Shown here: piece after piece, positions 3,801 through 10,157 of the stretch | Layout: each line of letters starts with the position of its first letter | Position numbering within the stretch: the first letter of the stretch is position 1 | Assembly (NCBI GenBank): GCA_028869385.1 | Contig: JAGWSR010000018.1 | Location: 1-38,061, forward strand | Origin: a bacterium | GTDB taxonomy: Bacteria > Vulcanimicrobiota > Vulcanimicrobiia > Vulcanimicrobiales > Vulcanimicrobiaceae | Length of the DNA stretch: 38,061 bases | Reading direction: 5' to 3' | Translations under genes and position numbers: made by a program | Notes under the pieces: model-generated | Database searches by the model: none | Seen by the model: the letters and a program-made list of their open reading frames with translations, nothing else | Told to the model about the DNA's origin: nothing

Positions 3801-3867
3801 GCTCAGCGTGACACATGCGGCTCAGCGTGACACATGCGGCTCAGCGTGACACATGCGGCTCAGCGTG
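3801..3867. repeat. 19-bp tandem repeat, about 3.5 copies
   Basis: The unit GCTCAGCGTGACACATGCG occurs at 3801-3819, 3820-3838 and 3839-3857, with a partial copy at 3858-3867. The copies are identical. The array is preceded by CTTCGACAG and lies between the terminator and the end of sigH, so it would be in the 3' untranslated region of sigH. The absence of spacers excludes a CRISPR. Confidence 0.95.
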
Positions 3868-3875
3868 GCGCGGGT

Positions 3876-4523
3876 TTATTGGAACTCGAACTCCGCGAGG
3901 TTCTTTTCGATCTTCCGCTTCACGCGCTGGAGCGCGTTGTCGATGGACTTCACGTGACGACCGAGGTCGCGCGCCATCTCTTGATAGCTCTTGCCCTCGA
4001 GGTACGACTCGAGCACCTGCGATTCGAGCTCCGAGAGATTCTGGCGGATGCGCTGACGGATATCGTCGGAGACTTCTTGCGTGACCACGAGCTCTTCGGG
4101 GTCCGAGGTCTTCTGCGACGCCATCACGTCGAGCAGCGTGCGCTCGCTGTCCTCATCGTAGATCGGCTTGTTCAGCGAGATGTACTGGTTGAGCGGAATG
4201 TGCTTCTGACGCGTCGCCGTCTTGATCGCGGTGATGATCTGACGCGTGATGCACAGCTCGGCGAACGCACGGAAGCTCGAGAGCTTGTCGGCCTTGAAGT
4301 CGCGCACGGCCTTATAGAGACCGATCATCCCTTCTTGGATGATATCCTCGCGATCGGCGCCGATGAGGAAGTAGCTCTTCGCTTTGATGCGGACGAAATT
4401 CTTATACTTGTTGAGGAGGTACTCCATCGCCAGGTTGTCGCCCGACTTCGCGATGGCCACGAGATCCTCGTCCACTCTCTCGTGGTATTCCAAACCATCC
4501 GACACGGGATGGGTCATAGCCAT
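3876..4523 (-). CDS. sigH: SigH-type RNA polymerase sigma factor
   Basis: A sigma-70 family factor of about 215 residues that resembles the SigH (sigma-30) group of Firmicutes. Region 2 contains GADREDIIQEGMIGLYKAVR and SSFRAFAELCITRQIITAIK, used in core binding and -10 recognition. Region 4 near the C-terminus contains the helix-turn-helix segment SYQEMARDLGRHVKSIDNAL. Position supports the assignment, because rlmB precedes sigH in Firmicutes too, although here a divergent gene intervenes. I use the ATG at 4523; a TTG at 4529 has a better-spaced GAGG upstream and would add two residues. A near-consensus promoter lies about 75 bp upstream. No sporulation gene is visible, so the regulon is unknown. 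Confidence 0.9.
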   Translation of the reverse strand: MAMTHPVSDGLEYHERVDEDLVAIAKSGDNLAMEYLLNKYKNFVRIKAKSYFLIGADREDIIQEGMIGLYKAVRDFKADKLSSFRAFAELCITRQIITAIKTATRQKHIPLNQYISLNKPIYDEDSERTLLDVMASQKTSDPEELVVTQEVSDDIRQRIRQNLSELESQVLESYLEGKSYQEMARDLGRHVKSIDNALQRVKRKIEKNLAEFEFQ

Positions 4524-4598
4524 AGTCAATTGTCGCCTCGTGGGATCGATGCGCCGCAAGACGTGGCCGGAGCCGATCGAGCGCGACGCATCCGCCTG

Positions 4599-4627
4599 AT
4601 TATAGGAGGGGGTCCTCCTCCCGTCAA
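4599..4627 (-). promoter_or_regulatory. sigma-70-type promoter of sigH
   Basis: On the minus strand a TTGACG -35 box (4627-4622) and a perfect TATAAT -10 box (4604-4599) are separated by exactly 17 bp. The spacer contains an imperfect inverted repeat, GGAGG...CCTCC. Transcription would start near 4592, leaving a leader of roughly 70 nt before sigH. Confidence 0.85.
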
Positions 4628-4742
4628 GGACGATTCAAGCGTCTCGGCGGCAATCGCTCGGCAGGCTGACGAGGATGTTCTTCCAGCCTTCCCGTCATGG
4701 GAACGCCTCCGCGCTACCCTCGGAGATGAGGAGGGAGACACC

Positions 4743-5207
4743 ATGAAACGCACGATCGTCGCCGCCGCGGCGGCCCTGGCGCTCGCCACGGCAGTCGCTC
4801 CGGCGGCCACGCGAACGATTTCCGGAACCCTGGTCAACGTCGCGAGCTACGTGACCGGAAACGCCGACGCGGTGACCTACGGCATGGGCAGCATGATGGC
4901 GGGCTACGGTCACATGACCGGCGCCAACGGTTCGATGATGAGCGGTACGAACGGCTCAATGATGGGCGGTTCGAACGGTTCGATGATGGGCGGTTCGACC
5001 GGCCAAGGCTGGATGCGAGCCTGCGCCGGAAGCGTGGGGCTCGTCACCAAGCAAGGAAAGCTCTATCTGCTCGTCACCCAGGCCGGAACGGGCACCGCGT
5101 ACGGGGGGCACGGGCTCTGCTCGCGGATCGGATCGAGCGCCACCGTGAGCGGGGAGACCTTCGAGCGCGGCGGTATCGAGGTGCTTGAGGTCGAGAGCCT
5201 GCAGTAA
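4743..5207 (+). CDS. secreted methionine-rich repeat protein, function unknown
   Basis: A 154-residue protein with an N-terminal signal peptide (MKRTIVAAAAALALATAVAPAA, likely cut after an Ala near residue 22). A low-complexity region follows that is rich in Gly, Ser, Asn and paired Met, with three 8-residue NGSMM repeats. The C-terminal half holds two cysteines (RACAGS and GLCSR) and hydrophobic strands suggesting a small beta domain. Methionine pairs in exported proteins often bind Cu(I) or Ag(I), which is a possibility only. GGAGG directly upstream is a strong ribosome binding site. The gene is divergent from sigH and ends next to the rlmB stop. I do not recognise a family. Confidence 0.75.
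   Translation: MKRTIVAAAAALALATAVAPAATRTISGTLVNVASYVTGNADAVTYGMGSMMAGYGHMTGANGSMMSGTNGSMMGGSNGSMMGGSTGQGWMRACAGSVGLVTKQGKLYLLVTQAGTGTAYGGHGLCSRIGSSATVSGETFERGGIEVLEVESLQ
4926..4997 (+). repeat. 24-bp in-frame tandem repeat, 3 copies
   Basis: Units at 4926-4949, 4950-4973 and 4974-4997 encode NGSMMSGT, NGSMMGGS and NGSMMGGS. The differences between copies are few single-base changes. Copy number could vary between strains by slippage, changing the number of Met-Met pairs in the exported protein. Confidence 0.9.
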
Positions 5208-5208
5208 G

Positions 5209-6009
5209 CTACCCGCGCCGCTGGCGCAGGACTTCGTACATGAGGACGCCGGCCGCGACCGAAGCGTTCAGTGACTCGGTGATGCCGGGCATCGGCACCC
5301 GCACGAGGTAATCGCATTCGCGCGCGACGAGGGGCGCGAGACCCGCCCCCTCGGCGCCGATCACGAGCGCGAGGTCGCGGTCAAAGTCGGCCTCGTACAT
5401 CAGCACCGACCCCTCGCCCGCATCCGCCCCAGCGACCCACACGCCGGCTTTCTTCAGCGTGCGAATCGCCTCGTTGACGTTGCCGATGCGTACGATCGGC
5501 AGATGTTCCGCGGCACCCGCCGCGGCCTTGCGAACGGTCGCGTTCACCCCCGCCGAACGACGCTCCGGGAGAATCACGGCATCGGCACCGGCGCACTCGG
5601 CCGTGCGGATGATCGCGCCGACGTTGTGCGGATCGGTCAGATGATCGAGGATCACGATGAACGCATGCTTACCGCGACGCTGCCCTATCACGTCGTGCAA
5701 CTGCGCGTACTCGAACGGCGGCGCGATCGCGATCACGCCTTGGTGCACCTTGAACGGCAACTGCGCGAAGAAGGCGCGGTCTTCGAAACGCACGAGAATC
5801 TCGCGCTCTTTCGCGGCGGCGATCAGGGCACGCAGTTGCGGGTCGCGTTTGCGGTCGTCCGCGACGTGAATGGCGCGCAGGCGTTCGCCGGCGGCGAGCG
5901 CCTCCTCGACCACGTGAATGCCGTACATCACATCGTCGAAATCGAGTTTACGCTCGCGCGCGGGCCTCGCGTGCGACGGCTTGCCCTTCCCTACCCGGCG
6001 ACGGTCCAC
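5209..6009 (-). CDS. rlmB: 23S rRNA (guanosine-2'-O-)-methyltransferase RlmB / TrmH family
   Basis: A 266-residue SPOUT-class rRNA methyltransferase. An N-terminal substrate-binding domain begins at MYGIHVVEEAL and ends near the PPFEYA segment. The catalytic SpoU domain follows with VILDHLTDPHNVGAIIRTAE, then VIGAEGAGL, then VPMPGITESLNASVAAGVLM; these are the three SPOUT knot motifs that bind S-adenosylmethionine. In E. coli the enzyme methylates G2251 of 23S rRNA. I chose the GTG at 6009, which has AGAAGG upstream, and which gives a basic N-terminal tail; a later ATG at 5928 has no ribosome binding site. The gene overlaps the cysS stop by 19 bases. The mrnC gene found between cysS and rlmB in Firmicutes is absent. 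Confidence 0.9.
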   Translation of the reverse strand: MDRRRVGKGKPSHARPARERKLDFDDVMYGIHVVEEALAAGERLRAIHVADDRKRDPQLRALIAAAKEREILVRFEDRAFFAQLPFKVHQGVIAIAPPFEYAQLHDVIGQRRGKHAFIVILDHLTDPHNVGAIIRTAECAGADAVILPERRSAGVNATVRKAAAGAAEHLPIVRIGNVNEAIRTLKKAGVWVAGADAGEGSVLMYEADFDRDLALVIGAEGAGLAPLVARECDYLVRVPMPGITESLNASVAAGVLMYEVLRQRRG

Positions 6010-7430
6010 GTGGTGCCTTCTTTCGAATCCTTGATCGCGATGCCGCAGCGCGCGAGCGCGTCGCGCAGGCGATCCGATGCGGCCCAGTCTTTGTTCGCGC
6101 GCGCCGCGGTGCGATGCGCGATCGCGCGCGCGATCGCCTCTTCGGGCGCGACGCCGTCGAGCGCGAGTTCGTCGCCGAGTTCGCTCTGCAGACGCGCGGT
6201 GAGATCGCTCGGGAGCTCGAGCTTCGGCTCTTCGAGCCAGGCGGGCGTCGGTTCGATGCCGAGCAGCCATAGCGCGCGCTCGAACTCGTAGCGCGCGTGC
6301 GCGCTCGGCTCGGGCGCCCACGAGAGCAACTCCGCGAGCGCGACCGCGGTGTTCATGTCGTTACAGAGTGCCGCTTCGACCTTCGGCAGCAGCACGCGCG
6401 CATCCGCGGCGGGTTCGCGCGCTTCGACCGTCGCCAGCCGACGGTAGGTCTTCTTCAGACGCGCGAGCGTCACGTTCGACGCAGCGAGCGACTCTTCGGT
6501 GAAGTTCATCACCTTGCTGTAGCCGGTCGGCAAGAACGTGAGGCGAACGGCCTGCGGATCGTGCCGCGCGAGCAGATCGGTGAGCGGCTCGAAGTTGCCG
6601 AGCGACTTCGACATCTTTCGGCCGTCGAAGTTGAGCAATCCGCCGTGCAGCCACACGTTGGCCATCGGCGGGTGCGCCATCAGCGGTTCGCTCTGCGCGA
6701 TTTCGTTCTCGTGGTGCGGAAAGATCAGGTCGGCGCCGCCGCCGTGGATGTCGAAGCCGACACCTTCGGGATCGAGCAGCGCGTGCGACATCGCCGAGCA
6801 TTCGATGTGCCAACCCGGCCGTCCGTCGCCGTACGGCTCGAACGCCCACTTGGGCTCGCCGGGCTTGGCGAACTTCCACAGCGCGAAGTCGAGTGGATCG
6901 TCTTTGTGCTCGTCCACGTCGATCCGTGCCCCGGCCTGCAATTCCTCGACGTTGCGATTGCTCAGCTTGCCGTAATCGGGAAAGCTGCTCACGCGATAGT
7001 AGATACCGTCTTCGACCGCGTAGGCGTGCCCGCGTTCGATCAACGCGCGAATCATCGCTTGAATCTGCGGGATGAACTTCGTCGCGTAGGGTTCCGCATC
7101 GGGCTCCATCACGCCGAGCCGACGCATCGCCGATTTAAAATCCGCGTAATACCCGGAGACGATCGCGTACCAATCTTCGCCCGTCTCGCGCGCCCGATTG
7201 ATGCTGCGATCGTCGATGTCGGTGACGTTCTGCACGTAAGTGACGGCGTACCCGAGATGCGTCAGCAGTCGACGCAGCAAGTCGAAGAAGAGAAACGAAC
7301 GCGCGTGCCCGAGATGCGCTTGCGCCGAAGGCGTGAGGCCGCACACGTAGATGCGAACCTGGCGCTCGCGCAAGGGAACGAAACGTTCGAGCGCGCGCGT
7401 GCGGGTATTGTAGAGGTTCAGATCACCCAC
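5991..7430 (-). CDS. cysS: cysteinyl-tRNA synthetase
   Basis: A complete 479-residue class I synthetase that charges tRNA-Cys. The HIGH motif appears as HLGH at residues 39-42 and KMSKS at 272-276. Zinc ligands characteristic of the enzyme are present: Cys30 (YVCGLT), Cys211 (HIECSA) and the HHENE block at 239-243. The DALR anticodon-binding region and a C-terminal helical domain follow, ending in the usual basic segment DRLRDALARCGI. The GTG start overlaps the end of cysE by 13 bases, consistent with one operon with cysE and rlmB. Confidence 0.97.
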   Translation of the reverse strand: MGDLNLYNTRTRALERFVPLRERQVRIYVCGLTPSAQAHLGHARSFLFFDLLRRLLTHLGYAVTYVQNVTDIDDRSINRARETGEDWYAIVSGYYADFKSAMRRLGVMEPDAEPYATKFIPQIQAMIRALIERGHAYAVEDGIYYRVSSFPDYGKLSNRNVEELQAGARIDVDEHKDDPLDFALWKFAKPGEPKWAFEPYGDGRPGWHIECSAMSHALLDPEGVGFDIHGGGADLIFPHHENEIAQSEPLMAHPPMANVWLHGGLLNFDGRKMSKSLGNFEPLTDLLARHDPQAVRLTFLPTGYSKVMNFTEESLAASNVTLARLKKTYRRLATVEAREPAADARVLLPKVEAALCNDMNTAVALAELLSWAPEPSAHARYEFERALWLLGIEPTPAWLEEPKLELPSDLTARLQSELGDELALDGVAPEEAIARAIAHRTAARANKDWAASDRLRDALARCGIAIKDSKEGTTWTVAG

Positions 7431-8101
7431 GACCAGGTCTCTTCGTGCTCCTTGCGTTCGACATCGTCGAGACGCGCTTCGAGTTGCGCGATGCGGCGCT
7501 GCAACTGATTGATGGCGTCGGCGTTGGGATCGGGCATCTCGACCTGCGGGCGATCGGGCACGAGGCGCACCGGTTTCCCGTCCTGGGCGACGACGTGCGC
7601 GGGAATGCCGACGACGGTCGCGTTGGCCGGAACGTCGCGTACGACGACGGATCCGCTGCCGATGCGCGCGTTATCGCCCACGACGATCGCGCCGAGGACG
7701 CTCGCGTTCGCTCCGACGATCACGTTCTTCCCCAACGTCGGATGGCGCTTCTTGCGCGCGAGCGACGTACCGCCGAGCGTCACGCCCTGATAGATCGTGC
7801 AGCCGTCACCGACTTCGGCCGTCTCACCGACGACGACGCCCATGCCGTGGTCGATGAAGACGCGCTCTCCGATCGTCGCGCCCGGATGAATCTCGATTCC
7901 GGTCAAAAAGCGCGCGACGTGCGAGAGCCAACGCGGCAGCAACGGCACGCCATGGGTGTGGAGCCAGTGCGTGACGCGATAGGCCGCGATCGCGTGGAAG
8001 CCCGGATACGAAAGCACGACGTCGAGCCAGCCGCGAGCGGCGGGATCGCGCTCGAGCGGGGCCTTCAGATCGCTGAGCAGTGTCTGCATCGGATTGGGCA
8101 T
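7418..8101 (-). CDS. cysE: serine O-acetyltransferase
   Basis: A 227-residue left-handed beta-helix acetyltransferase that makes O-acetylserine from serine and acetyl-CoA, the first step of cysteine synthesis. The hexapeptide core starts at GIEIHPGATIGERVFIDHG, which includes the catalytic Asp-His pair, continues through VVVGETAEVGDGCTIYQG and GGTSLARKKRHPTL, and ends at VVGIPAHVV. It is the short form without the long N-terminal helical domain of E. coli CysE. A roughly 30-residue C-terminal coiled coil rich in Arg, Glu and Leu follows. It sits directly before cysS, so cysteine synthesis and charging are linked, as in Bacillus. Confidence 0.95.
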   Translation of the reverse strand: MPNPMQTLLSDLKAPLERDPAARGWLDVVLSYPGFHAIAAYRVTHWLHTHGVPLLPRWLSHVARFLTGIEIHPGATIGERVFIDHGMGVVVGETAEVGDGCTIYQGVTLGGTSLARKKRHPTLGKNVIVGANASVLGAIVVGDNARIGSGSVVVRDVPANATVVGIPAHVVAQDGKPVRLVPDRPQVEMPDPNADAINQLQRRIAQLEARLDDVERKEHEETWSWVI

Positions 8102-8136: not shown

Positions 8137-8706
8137 TTACGACCCGCGCGCCTCACCCTCGTCCTGCGGTTTTGCCGACGCGATCGGCTCGAAGGGCTTG
8201 CCGTCGGGACCGTAGGCGATCGGTTCGAGCCCCCGACCGTGCAGCAGCCGCGAACTCACCGCACCGATGCGAATCAGGATGCGGTCGTGCCCGAGCAGCG
8301 GAAAGAGCAGCTCTAACGGCGGCCCCGTGCGCTCGCCGGTGAGCGCCATCCGCGCCGCGTGCAGCCCGTCTTCGGGAGCGATGCCGAACTCGGCCGCGAT
8401 CGCGGGCAGGTCGTGCGCGAGGGGAAGCCCGCGCAATTCCGGCTGATGGTCCACGTACTGTCCCACGGCGTCGAGAAAGAACAGCACGTTGCGCGTACGC
8501 AAGCGCTCGAGTTCGAGTGCCGGGATCACGCACGCCTCGGCGCGCAGCGCGGCGACGCGCGAGAAGGCGTCGTCGGCTGACGGCAATTCGGGTCCGTAGG
8601 CTTCGAGAAACGTCTCGATCCAGCGCAGCGCCGCATCGGGCGCGGGGCTCTCGAGAAAACCCCAGCGCTGCATCGCCGTCATCAGGTGCGCCGCGTTCAC
8701 GCTCAT
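8137..8706 (-). CDS. stand-alone GltX anticodon-binding-domain-like protein (gltX remnant)
   Basis: A 189-residue protein resembling only the C-terminal, all-helical anticodon-binding half of bacterial glutamyl-tRNA synthetase. The best landmark is the segment AARMALTGERTGPPLELLF followed by LLGHDRILIRI, which matches the end of GltX where RVALTG and the final helix occur. The catalytic Rossmann domain with HIGH and KMSKS motifs is missing. The start lies only 24 bp after the ispF stop, so nothing was missed upstream. The gene occupies exactly the gltX position of the Firmicutes cluster. A polar tail (PDGKPFEPIASAKPQ) extends past the domain. A catalytic GltX must exist elsewhere. This protein may be a tRNA-binding accessory or a fossil. 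Confidence 0.7.
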   Translation of the reverse strand: MSVNAAHLMTAMQRWGFLESPAPDAALRWIETFLEAYGPELPSADDAFSRVAALRAEACVIPALELERLRTRNVLFFLDAVGQYVDHQPELRGLPLAHDLPAIAAEFGIAPEDGLHAARMALTGERTGPPLELLFPLLGHDRILIRIGAVSSRLLHGRGLEPIAYGPDGKPFEPIASAKPQDEGEARGS

Positions 8707-8730: not shown

Positions 8731-9204
8731 TTAGCGCTCGATCGCGCAGACCGCGTGCGCCGCGATCCCGCTGCCGTCGCCGGTGTAGCCCATGCCCTCG
8801 CTCGTCTTCGCCTTCACGCTCACGCATTCGAGGTCGAGTGCGAGCACGGCCGCGATGCGCGCGCGCATGTCGGGGATGTAGCGCGCGAGCTTCGGTCGAT
8901 CGACGACGATCGTGCCGTCGACGTTGACGAGTTCGTAGCCCGCCTCGCGAACCAGGCGCGCGCACGCGCCGAGCAGCTTCATCGAGTCGGCATCTTTCCA
9001 TTGCGGATCGATGTCGGGAAAGTGCCCGCCCAAGTCGCCGAGCGCCGCCGCGCCGAGCAGCGCGTCGCAGAGCGCGTGCGCGAGGACGTCGGCATCGGAG
9101 TGTCCGAGCGCGCCGCGTTCGAACGGCACCTCGACGCCGCCGAGCACCAGGCGCCGCCCCTCGACCAAGCGATGCGCGTCGAAGCCGTGACCGACTCGCG
9201 TCAT
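8731..9204 (-). CDS. ispF: 2-C-methyl-D-erythritol 2,4-cyclodiphosphate synthase
   Basis: A full-length 157-residue trimeric enzyme of the MEP isoprenoid pathway that cyclises CDP-methylerythritol 2-phosphate, releasing CMP. The zinc site is visible as Asp9 and His11 (GFDAH) with His35 (LGHSDADV). The conserved FPDIDPQWKDADSM segment and the C-terminal KAKTSEGMGYTGDGSG block complete the family pattern. Its ATG overlaps the ispD stop as ATGA. It feeds isoprenoid precursors to, among others, the polyprenyl synthase and carotenoid genes further right in the window. Confidence 0.97.
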   Translation of the reverse strand: MTRVGHGFDAHRLVEGRRLVLGGVEVPFERGALGHSDADVLAHALCDALLGAAALGDLGGHFPDIDPQWKDADSMKLLGACARLVREAGYELVNVDGTIVVDRPKLARYIPDMRARIAAVLALDLECVSVKAKTSEGMGYTGDGSGIAAHAVCAIER

Positions 9205-10157
9205 CCGCGCGCACCCGCTTCGCTCGCGCCCGCGTAGTGCGAAAAGCGCGTCGTGAACGTGGCGCTGCCGTCGGCGAAGGCTTCGAAGCGTTCGCTGAAG
9301 CCGCGCAGCGACTCGGCACGCACGAACGCGCGCACCGTGACGCCCTGCGGCAGGTCGCGCTCGACGGCGTCGATGCGCGCACCGCGCGCCTCGAATTCGC
9401 GCTCGATCGCGGCGACGAGCGATTCGTCGGCAAAGACTTCCACGAGCAGGATCTCCTCATCGAGCGGCACGTGCTCCGCACGCTCCCGCAGCAACAACTC
9501 GGCGTGCGCGAGATCGTGCGGGTGCGTCACCTTAAAATTCTCGCCGCTCGCCGGTACGATCGCGACTTCGACACCGATCGCTTCGAGCAGGGCGACATCG
9601 TCGGTCGCTTCGAGCGATCCGCGCTGCGCGTGCGCGTGAGCACGCTCGAGATCACGACGCCATGCGAACTGCGGCGTCTGCGCCGCCCAAAGCGTGCCGC
9701 GATCGAGCGTGTGCCGCACCGTCATCGTGGCGGGATCCACGACCTTCACCGTGTCGACGACGGGCGCCGCGAGCACCGCGCCGCGTCCCGGCCGCACCTC
9801 GCGCATACCGGCGCGCACGTCCTGCGCGAGCACGAGCGGGCGCGCGCCGTCGTGCACGAAGAGCGCGTTGCATGCATCGGAGAGCGCGCGCAGGCCGTTC
9901 GAGACGCTCCCCTGACGCGTCGCCCCGCCCGCGACCACGCGCGCACGCTGCGGCGCCTCGAGCGCTGCGACGAGCTCGCGCATGGGCTCGAGCCACGCCT
10001 CTTCCGTGACGACGACGAGTTCGACGATCTCGGGCATCCGCGCGAAGGTTCGCAGCGACCACGCGACCATCGGCACGCCCGCGATCTCCACCAATTGCTT
10101 GGGACGACCGAAACGCGTTCCGCGCCCCGCTGCGACGACGACCGCTCCCCATCTCAT
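9201..10157 (-). CDS. ispD: IspD cytidylyltransferase fused to an EF-G domain V-like C-terminal domain
   Basis: Residues 1 to about 228 form a normal IspD, which couples CTP to methylerythritol 4-phosphate. The nucleotide-binding loop is VVAAGRGTRFGRPKQL, with VHDGARPL and TDDVALLEAIG further on. Residues about 229-318 are extra: IspD normally ends near 230. This extension matches the C-terminal domain (domain V, EFG_C) of elongation factor G along its length, with VEVFADESL, then EARGARIDAVE, then VRAFV, then ADGSATFTTRFSHY as counterparts of conserved EF-G blocks. Domain V alone has a ferredoxin-like fold. Its role here is unknown; possibilities are oligomerisation or regulation. The gene overlaps both the yacL-like gene and ispF by 4 bases. 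Confidence 0.92.
   Translation of the reverse strand: MRWGAVVVAAGRGTRFGRPKQLVEIAGVPMVAWSLRTFARMPEIVELVVVTEEAWLEPMRELVAALEAPQRARVVAGGATRQGSVSNGLRALSDACNALFVHDGARPLVLAQDVRAGMREVRPGRGAVLAAPVVDTVKVVDPATMTVRHTLDRGTLWAAQTPQFAWRRDLERAHAHAQRGSLEATDDVALLEAIGVEVAIVPASGENFKVTHPHDLAHAELLLRERAEHVPLDEEILLVEVFADESLVAAIEREFEARGARIDAVERDLPQGVTVRAFVRAESLRGFSERFEAFADGSATFTTRFSHYAGASEAGARG

Follow-up and report, generated by a model that had tools for sequence, protein, structure and literature searches.

The minus strand of a 38,061-nucleotide stretch of DNA from a member of the Vulcanimicrobiaceae, a family of soil bacteria that has received little study (the window, meaning this whole stretch), carries, between ispF and cysE, the gene of a free-standing anticodon-binding domain (ABD) of the glutamyl-tRNA synthetase (GluRS) type. 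Judged by its structure model the 189-residue product, ORF189 (8137–8706), consists of one complete bacterial GluRS ABD, followed only by a short tail. Its identity as the ABD of the synthetase that relatives encode in the same slot (GltX-A), and its descent from that enzyme, are virtually beyond doubt.

Genomic context and identity of ORF189

The frame begins with an ATG at 8706 and runs over 189 codons to a stop codon at 8137–8139. Upstream of it lie ispD (9201–10157) and ispF (8731–9204), the latter ending 24 bp before the ORF189 start; cysE (7418–8101) follows directly downstream, then cysS (5991–7430) and rlmB (5209–6321), all on the minus strand. All five neighbours scored above their NCBIfam cut-offs in the order IspD-IspF-ORF189-CysE-CysS-RlmB. 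An initial annotation, made from the sequence of the window, had described a 189-residue frame at this place in a conserved ispD-ispF-gltX-cysE-cysS-rlmB order, and both observations hold, the strand being minus. The rlmB frame overlaps cysS and starts about 130 codons beyond the RlmB model, which covers residues 130–368 only; translation probably begins near 5940. Another frame of the window (3834–5207) has a C-terminal part rich in Met-Gly-Ser repeats (GSMMGG) and perhaps encodes a small secreted protein.

Pfam matched residues 76–148 of ORF189 (8263–8481, minus strand) to Anticodon_2 (PF19269) with 25.3 bits against a gathering cut-off of 23.6. When the whole genome was searched the match scored 25.7 bits, and the only other PF19269 match was the ABD of a complete gltX. 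Pfam and NCBIfam detected the ABD only, with no catalytic Rossmann domain (HIGH, KMSKS), and the score for the full gltX model (TIGR00464, NCBIfam) was far under the cut-off. In PDB searches, by phmmer and with a profile, the best matches were the C-termini of GluRS structures. An AlphaFold2 model built with 45 relatives reached a pLDDT of 89.3 and a pTM of 0.83. With this model the best 41 Foldseek matches were all GluRS, as were the best 25 matches of VIA-align (Z 16.0 to 8.8, the next match having 3.7). The top VIA-align match was 2cfo_B, the ABD of the Thermosynechococcus GluRS (Z 16.0, rmsd 2.7 over 158 residues), which aligned with residues 2–161 of the model.

The initial annotation had seen similarity to the tRNA-binding half alone; the Pfam score agrees with this, and the structure extends the match to the whole ABD. 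Membership in an unrelated family, which had been named as the result that would overturn the assignment, is ruled out by the PF19269 score, Foldseek and VIA-align, the homology to the GluRS ABD lying above a curated cut-off. ORF189 is neither a new fold nor a new domain family; its novelty lies in the architecture, which is of a known kind. It shares the ABD fold with class I GluRS (gltX, TIGR00464) and stands in the slot of the full gltX of its relatives, but it lacks the catalytic domain, so that no charging is expected, it is acidic, and it has a conserved extra tail.

GluRS genes of the window genome and its relatives

A full gltX elsewhere in the genome, which the initial annotation had suggested looking for, does exist. 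The window genome (3.08 Mb in 152 contigs) contains one, of 497 aa, on contig C20. This gene (L001:282) begins at the edge of C20 and its first ~35–36 codons are repeated where contig C17 ends (L002:2-109); it is probably one gene across the contig break C17/C20. A catalytic-domain search of the genome, which would also catch GlnRS, returned only this gltX and no GlnRS. As GatB is present, the indirect route presumably supplies the cell with Gln-tRNA(Gln).

We surveyed the ispF-cysE slot in 60 relatives and distinguished three kinds of GluRS: GltX-A, the full GluRS located in the slot; GltX-B, a second GluRS located elsewhere; and GltX-C, a third kind with 66–93% identity to the gltX of the window genome and ~37–47% to GltX-A/B in the catalytic domain. 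Full GltX-A lies between ispF and cysE in genomes of two related families outside the window's own family (f2 and f3), and inside the family in five genomes (G006, G007, G024, G028 and G034; in G028 the slot spans two contigs). All five also carry GltX-B elsewhere, and their slot copies keep the HIGH-type and KLSKR motifs (KLSKR seen by eye in G007 and G028). The G007 copy is without the same insertion region that is missing from the decayed copies of genus g9 described below. The G034 copy shows a frameshift inside the ABD (L062:2412-2932), seen as two overlapping matches in different frames.

Since relatives carry a full gltX in this slot, ORF189 descended from a full synthetase. The initial annotation had assumed a clean loss of the catalytic domain 24 bp after ispF, and the full genes of the relatives as well as the 24-bp gap bear this out. 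It had also listed relatives with a fused catalytic domain at the same locus as a finding that would count against it. Such relatives were found; they establish the descent of the short gene and leave the proposal of a retained role, in tRNA-Glu binding or in regulation, standing as a possibility. We infer that the ancestor of this class of the Eremiobacterota (Vulcanimicrobiota) had two GluRS, GltX-A being one of them.

GltX-C sequences form a clade of their own (support 100/100). Their best relatives in the PDB are the GluRS of Pseudomonas, Moraxella and Chlamydia, and 31 of the 32 sequences examined have the motif HV[GA]T, the remaining one having HVGL. According to PMC3927822, H-phi-G-T is the motif of a horizontally acquired group of alpha/gamma-proteobacterial GluRS. 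Clade, PDB relatives and motif together make a horizontal origin of GltX-C likely. GltX-C has its own complete ABD, and the idea that ORF189 supplies a domain missing from it was rejected for this reason. In genomes with GltX-C no GltX-B is left apart from a single divergent fragment in G004, and GltX-A is either missing, kept with a decayed catalytic half or reduced to the ABD; in most family genomes GltX-C is the only intact GluRS found. The G004 fragment (L116, G004:C13:1-762) is a divergent GluRS at a contig end in the same MAG as a GltX-C, and represents either contamination or a further paralogue.

Distribution, selection and loss of the catalytic half

At E ≤ 0.01 ORF189 matched 71 of 99 family genomes, including the five with full GltX-A and one weak match in G108 that we dropped as spurious, its frame showing no GltX feature. 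Among the 94 genomes without full GltX-A the ABD is kept in 65, free-standing in 57 and on a decayed catalytic half in eight. A GltX-C match was present in 91 of these 94, the exceptions being G065, G083 and G086 (61–84% complete). The 57 genomes with a free-standing ABD contained no second, slot-type catalytic match, and G083 and G086 gave no catalytic match whatever; N-termini were inspected in 40 of the 57. The set of ABD carriers spans some 30 genera. The domain is absent from 29 of the 94 genomes (18 of genus g51, eight of g19 including G108, and G016, G023 and G121) and is therefore not essential; it was lost later in some genera. In 13 ABD-less slots examined, ispF and cysE are adjacent or at most ~1.4 kb apart, and no match to the ABD reached E ≤ 0.001.

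In many genomes the start codon of the ABD gene overlaps the ispF stop codon by 4 nt (ATGA/GTGA). In G010 ~3.4 kb lie between ispF and the ABD and the slot cysE is gone, and the ABD persists; in G031 it is ~1.8 kb from cysE. The G010 interval holds a large frame on the opposite strand (L158:2541-5612), by eye a LuxR-type ATPase regulator, and L161 has a similar frame upstream of its slot. The G010 assembly, one contig of 3,508,363 bp, carries the free-standing ABD and is taken as the isolate Vulcanimicrobium alpinus WC8-2 (PMC9758169).

The initial annotation had also proposed that the frame is intact and under constraint, rather than in random decay, and had suggested a dN/dS comparison across related genomes. 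We calculated dN/dS (Nei-Gojobori, own script) for 18 chosen pairs, 15 of free-standing ABDs, one of full copies from the family and two from f2. The 15 free-standing pairs gave 0.058–0.198, and IspF, CysE and IspD gave 0.03–0.29 in the same pairs. In f2 the ABD, there part of a full GltX-A, changes faster (0.32 and 0.33 in the two pairs); dS of ORF189 was not estimable for the pair L018/L062, and very long branches lead to the G024 and G007 ABDs. The free-standing ABD is under strong purifying selection like its housekeeping neighbours. Together with the matches across the family, these values rule out an open frame that arose by chance and agree with the proposed constraint, and ORF189 very probably has a selected function.

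Genus g9 preserves intermediate states. Eight of its genomes have in the slot an open frame of ~480–530 codons (stop to stop) that still joins a catalytic half to the ABD. This half falls in the GltX-A clade (97/90 within the family) and is without query residues ~106–155; in all eight frames, as read, the HIGH region has lost its PTG and KLSK its second lysine. Over 28 pairs of these genes median pN was 0.112 in the ABD versus 0.218 in the catalytic half, with pS of 0.400 versus 0.442 and identity of 0.81 versus 0.65; the ABD thus changes at half the rate of the catalytic part attached to it. Three further g9 genomes (G010, G117 and G119) have the ABD only. The decayed copies (L161-L166, L168 and L170) are without an intact KLSK. 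L168, the sole one tested, passes the NCBIfam gltX cut-off (329 versus 290 bits) and would therefore be annotated as an active glutamate--tRNA ligase.

In the ABD tree all ABDs of GltX-C genomes are united (99/97), and the eight decayed g9 enzymes are nested among the free-standing ones. The tree of the operon genes speaks strongly against a single clade of GltX-C genomes (p-AU 1.5e-59, from a quick tree and for a group named after an earlier tree had been inspected). It scatters the genomes with full GltX-A, placing G007 beside the ABD-only G090, and G006 and G034 beside the ABD-only G035. If the loss of a catalytic half is irreversible, this would mean several independent losses, about six on the ABD tree to eight on the operon tree when counted by eye. 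Plain parsimony on the ABD tree needs only two changes, and transfer of the short ABD gene inside the family is the alternative to several losses. Alignment A1 omits near-duplicate or additional loci (L033, L035, L039, L042, L045, L047 and L049-L052); because of long branches the ABD tree was built without G024 and the operon-gene test without G056, and G034 entered the ABD tree with only the piece before the frameshift.

Thirteen chosen N-termini were compared with the start of GltX-A for a leftover peptide. The fraction of shuffles reaching the observed score was 0.007 for G117, 0.017 for G005 and 0.029 for G010, and at least 0.06 for the other ten, all uncorrected for 13 tests. The GltX-A-like start peptide before the G117 ABD is suggestive of a separate in-frame deletion.

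Two readings would deny the short gene a role. A slowly decaying relic without function would fit the absence of the ABD from g51, g19, G016, G023 and G121, but dN/dS of ~0.1 over ~30 genera, the open frames, the persistence of the gene when its neighbourhood changes, and the g9 genes, in which the catalytic half decays and the attached ABD much less, make it very improbable. Most of the genomes are draft MAGs, which might suggest an assembly or binning artefact; as the same arrangement is found in the single contig of G010 and in dozens of independent MAGs, we give this next to no weight.

Possible role of the retained domain

Two conserved elements of the short protein bear on its function. 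Residues 119–131 (8314–8352, minus strand) form an R-x-A-L-T-G-x4-P-P-L motif aligned with R435..L447 of the Thermus GluRS, which we take to be the anticodon-contacting stretch, with roles for R435, P445 and L447. The motif, as R-x-A-L-T-G-x4-P-x-L, is largely kept in free-standing ABDs, and the arginine aligned with R435 is not invariant. The most rigid new feature in the alignment of free-standing copies is the C-terminal tail LHGRGLEPIAYGPDGKPF (residues 155–172; 8191–8244, minus strand) with the pattern L-H-G-R-G-L...G-P-x-G-x-P-F. LHGRGL (155–160), G166, P167 and G169 show no variation among the 38 aligned free-standing copies that extend this far. Full GltX-A already has the tail in G006 and G028 and part of it in the f2 genome G040, while G037 and G038 are without it; the tail is therefore older than the loss of the catalytic half. 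In charge the free-standing ABDs are acidic (median net charge -9, pI 5.06 in 40 genomes) and GltX-C ABDs basic (+1, pI 8.2 in 31 sequences). This acidity argues against RNA binding.

The horizontal arrival of GltX-C may have made catalysis by GltX-A and GltX-B redundant. The ABD of GltX-A with its tail would have had a second job with no need of catalysis, and the free-standing domain would continue it in trans, as a small cofactor binding the anticodon arm of tRNA-Glu or tRNA-Gln in a cell that makes Gln-tRNA(Gln) by the indirect route. The tail may contact a partner such as GltX-C or GatCAB. We favour such a protein acting in trans, whether it binds the tRNA-Glu/Gln anticodon arm or the charging machinery, over its main rival, a protein-only scaffold, at about even odds. 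That ORF189 acts by tRNA binding in trans is a claim we would hold and doubt in equal measure. Arc1p and Trbp111 are stand-alone tRNA-binding cofactors of synthetases, with folds unrelated to the GluRS ABD and not derived from it; they would work like ORF189 if the trans-acting reading is true.

Besides the acidity, the variable arginine and the absence of the ABD from 29 of the 94 genomes, what speaks against a cofactor in trans is that GltX-C, with a complete ABD, needs no such help. If the fold was kept and RNA binding lost, ORF189 would be a protein-binding scaffold or regulator working through the tail and the conserved 57–91 stretch. The acidic shift and the invariant tail residues, already there in full GltX-A, favour this, but the anticodon motif is also largely kept, and we regard it as a real though less probable possibility. 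The widely kept gene position and translational coupling to ispF would also suit a protein that binds RNA to regulate the operon it belongs to (ispDF-cysE-cysS-rlmB) instead of tRNA charging. This is unlikely, given that the ABD persists in G010 despite the distance to ispF and the missing cysE, and in G031 away from cysE. For the history as a whole we lean slightly towards parallel reduction to a regulatory or scaffold protein, in which, after takeover by a foreign GluRS, the catalytic half decayed and was deleted several times independently and the ABD kept each time, with intermediate states surviving in the genus to which the cultured V. alpinus belongs.

Half a GluRS kept as a stand-alone protein is also seen in YadB/GluQ-RS, an isolated N-terminal GluRS domain that PMC3927822 calls rampant in bacteria. 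GluQ-RS keeps the catalytic half without the ABD, whereas ORF189 keeps the ABD only; given this opposite architecture, we rejected an assignment of ORF189 to GluQ-RS. PMC3927822 also describes GluRS2 of Thermotoga maritima, an additional GluRS retained although it does not charge tRNA; it is full-length, whereas in ORF189 the catalytic half is gone, and in g9 decayed. The literature searched held no description of a free-standing GluRS ABD, which is weak evidence as most subscription journals lie outside its coverage.

A GluRS has here been cut down to its ABD and kept by selection over dozens of genera, in what looks like the mirror image of GluQ-RS. The living series of full enzyme, decayed enzyme, ABD only and nothing is an unusually clear record of its origin. 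It raises a testable question about the jobs of synthetase domains beyond charging, and about what retains them after replacement by horizontal transfer, and V. alpinus offers a carrier that is in culture and has a closed genome.
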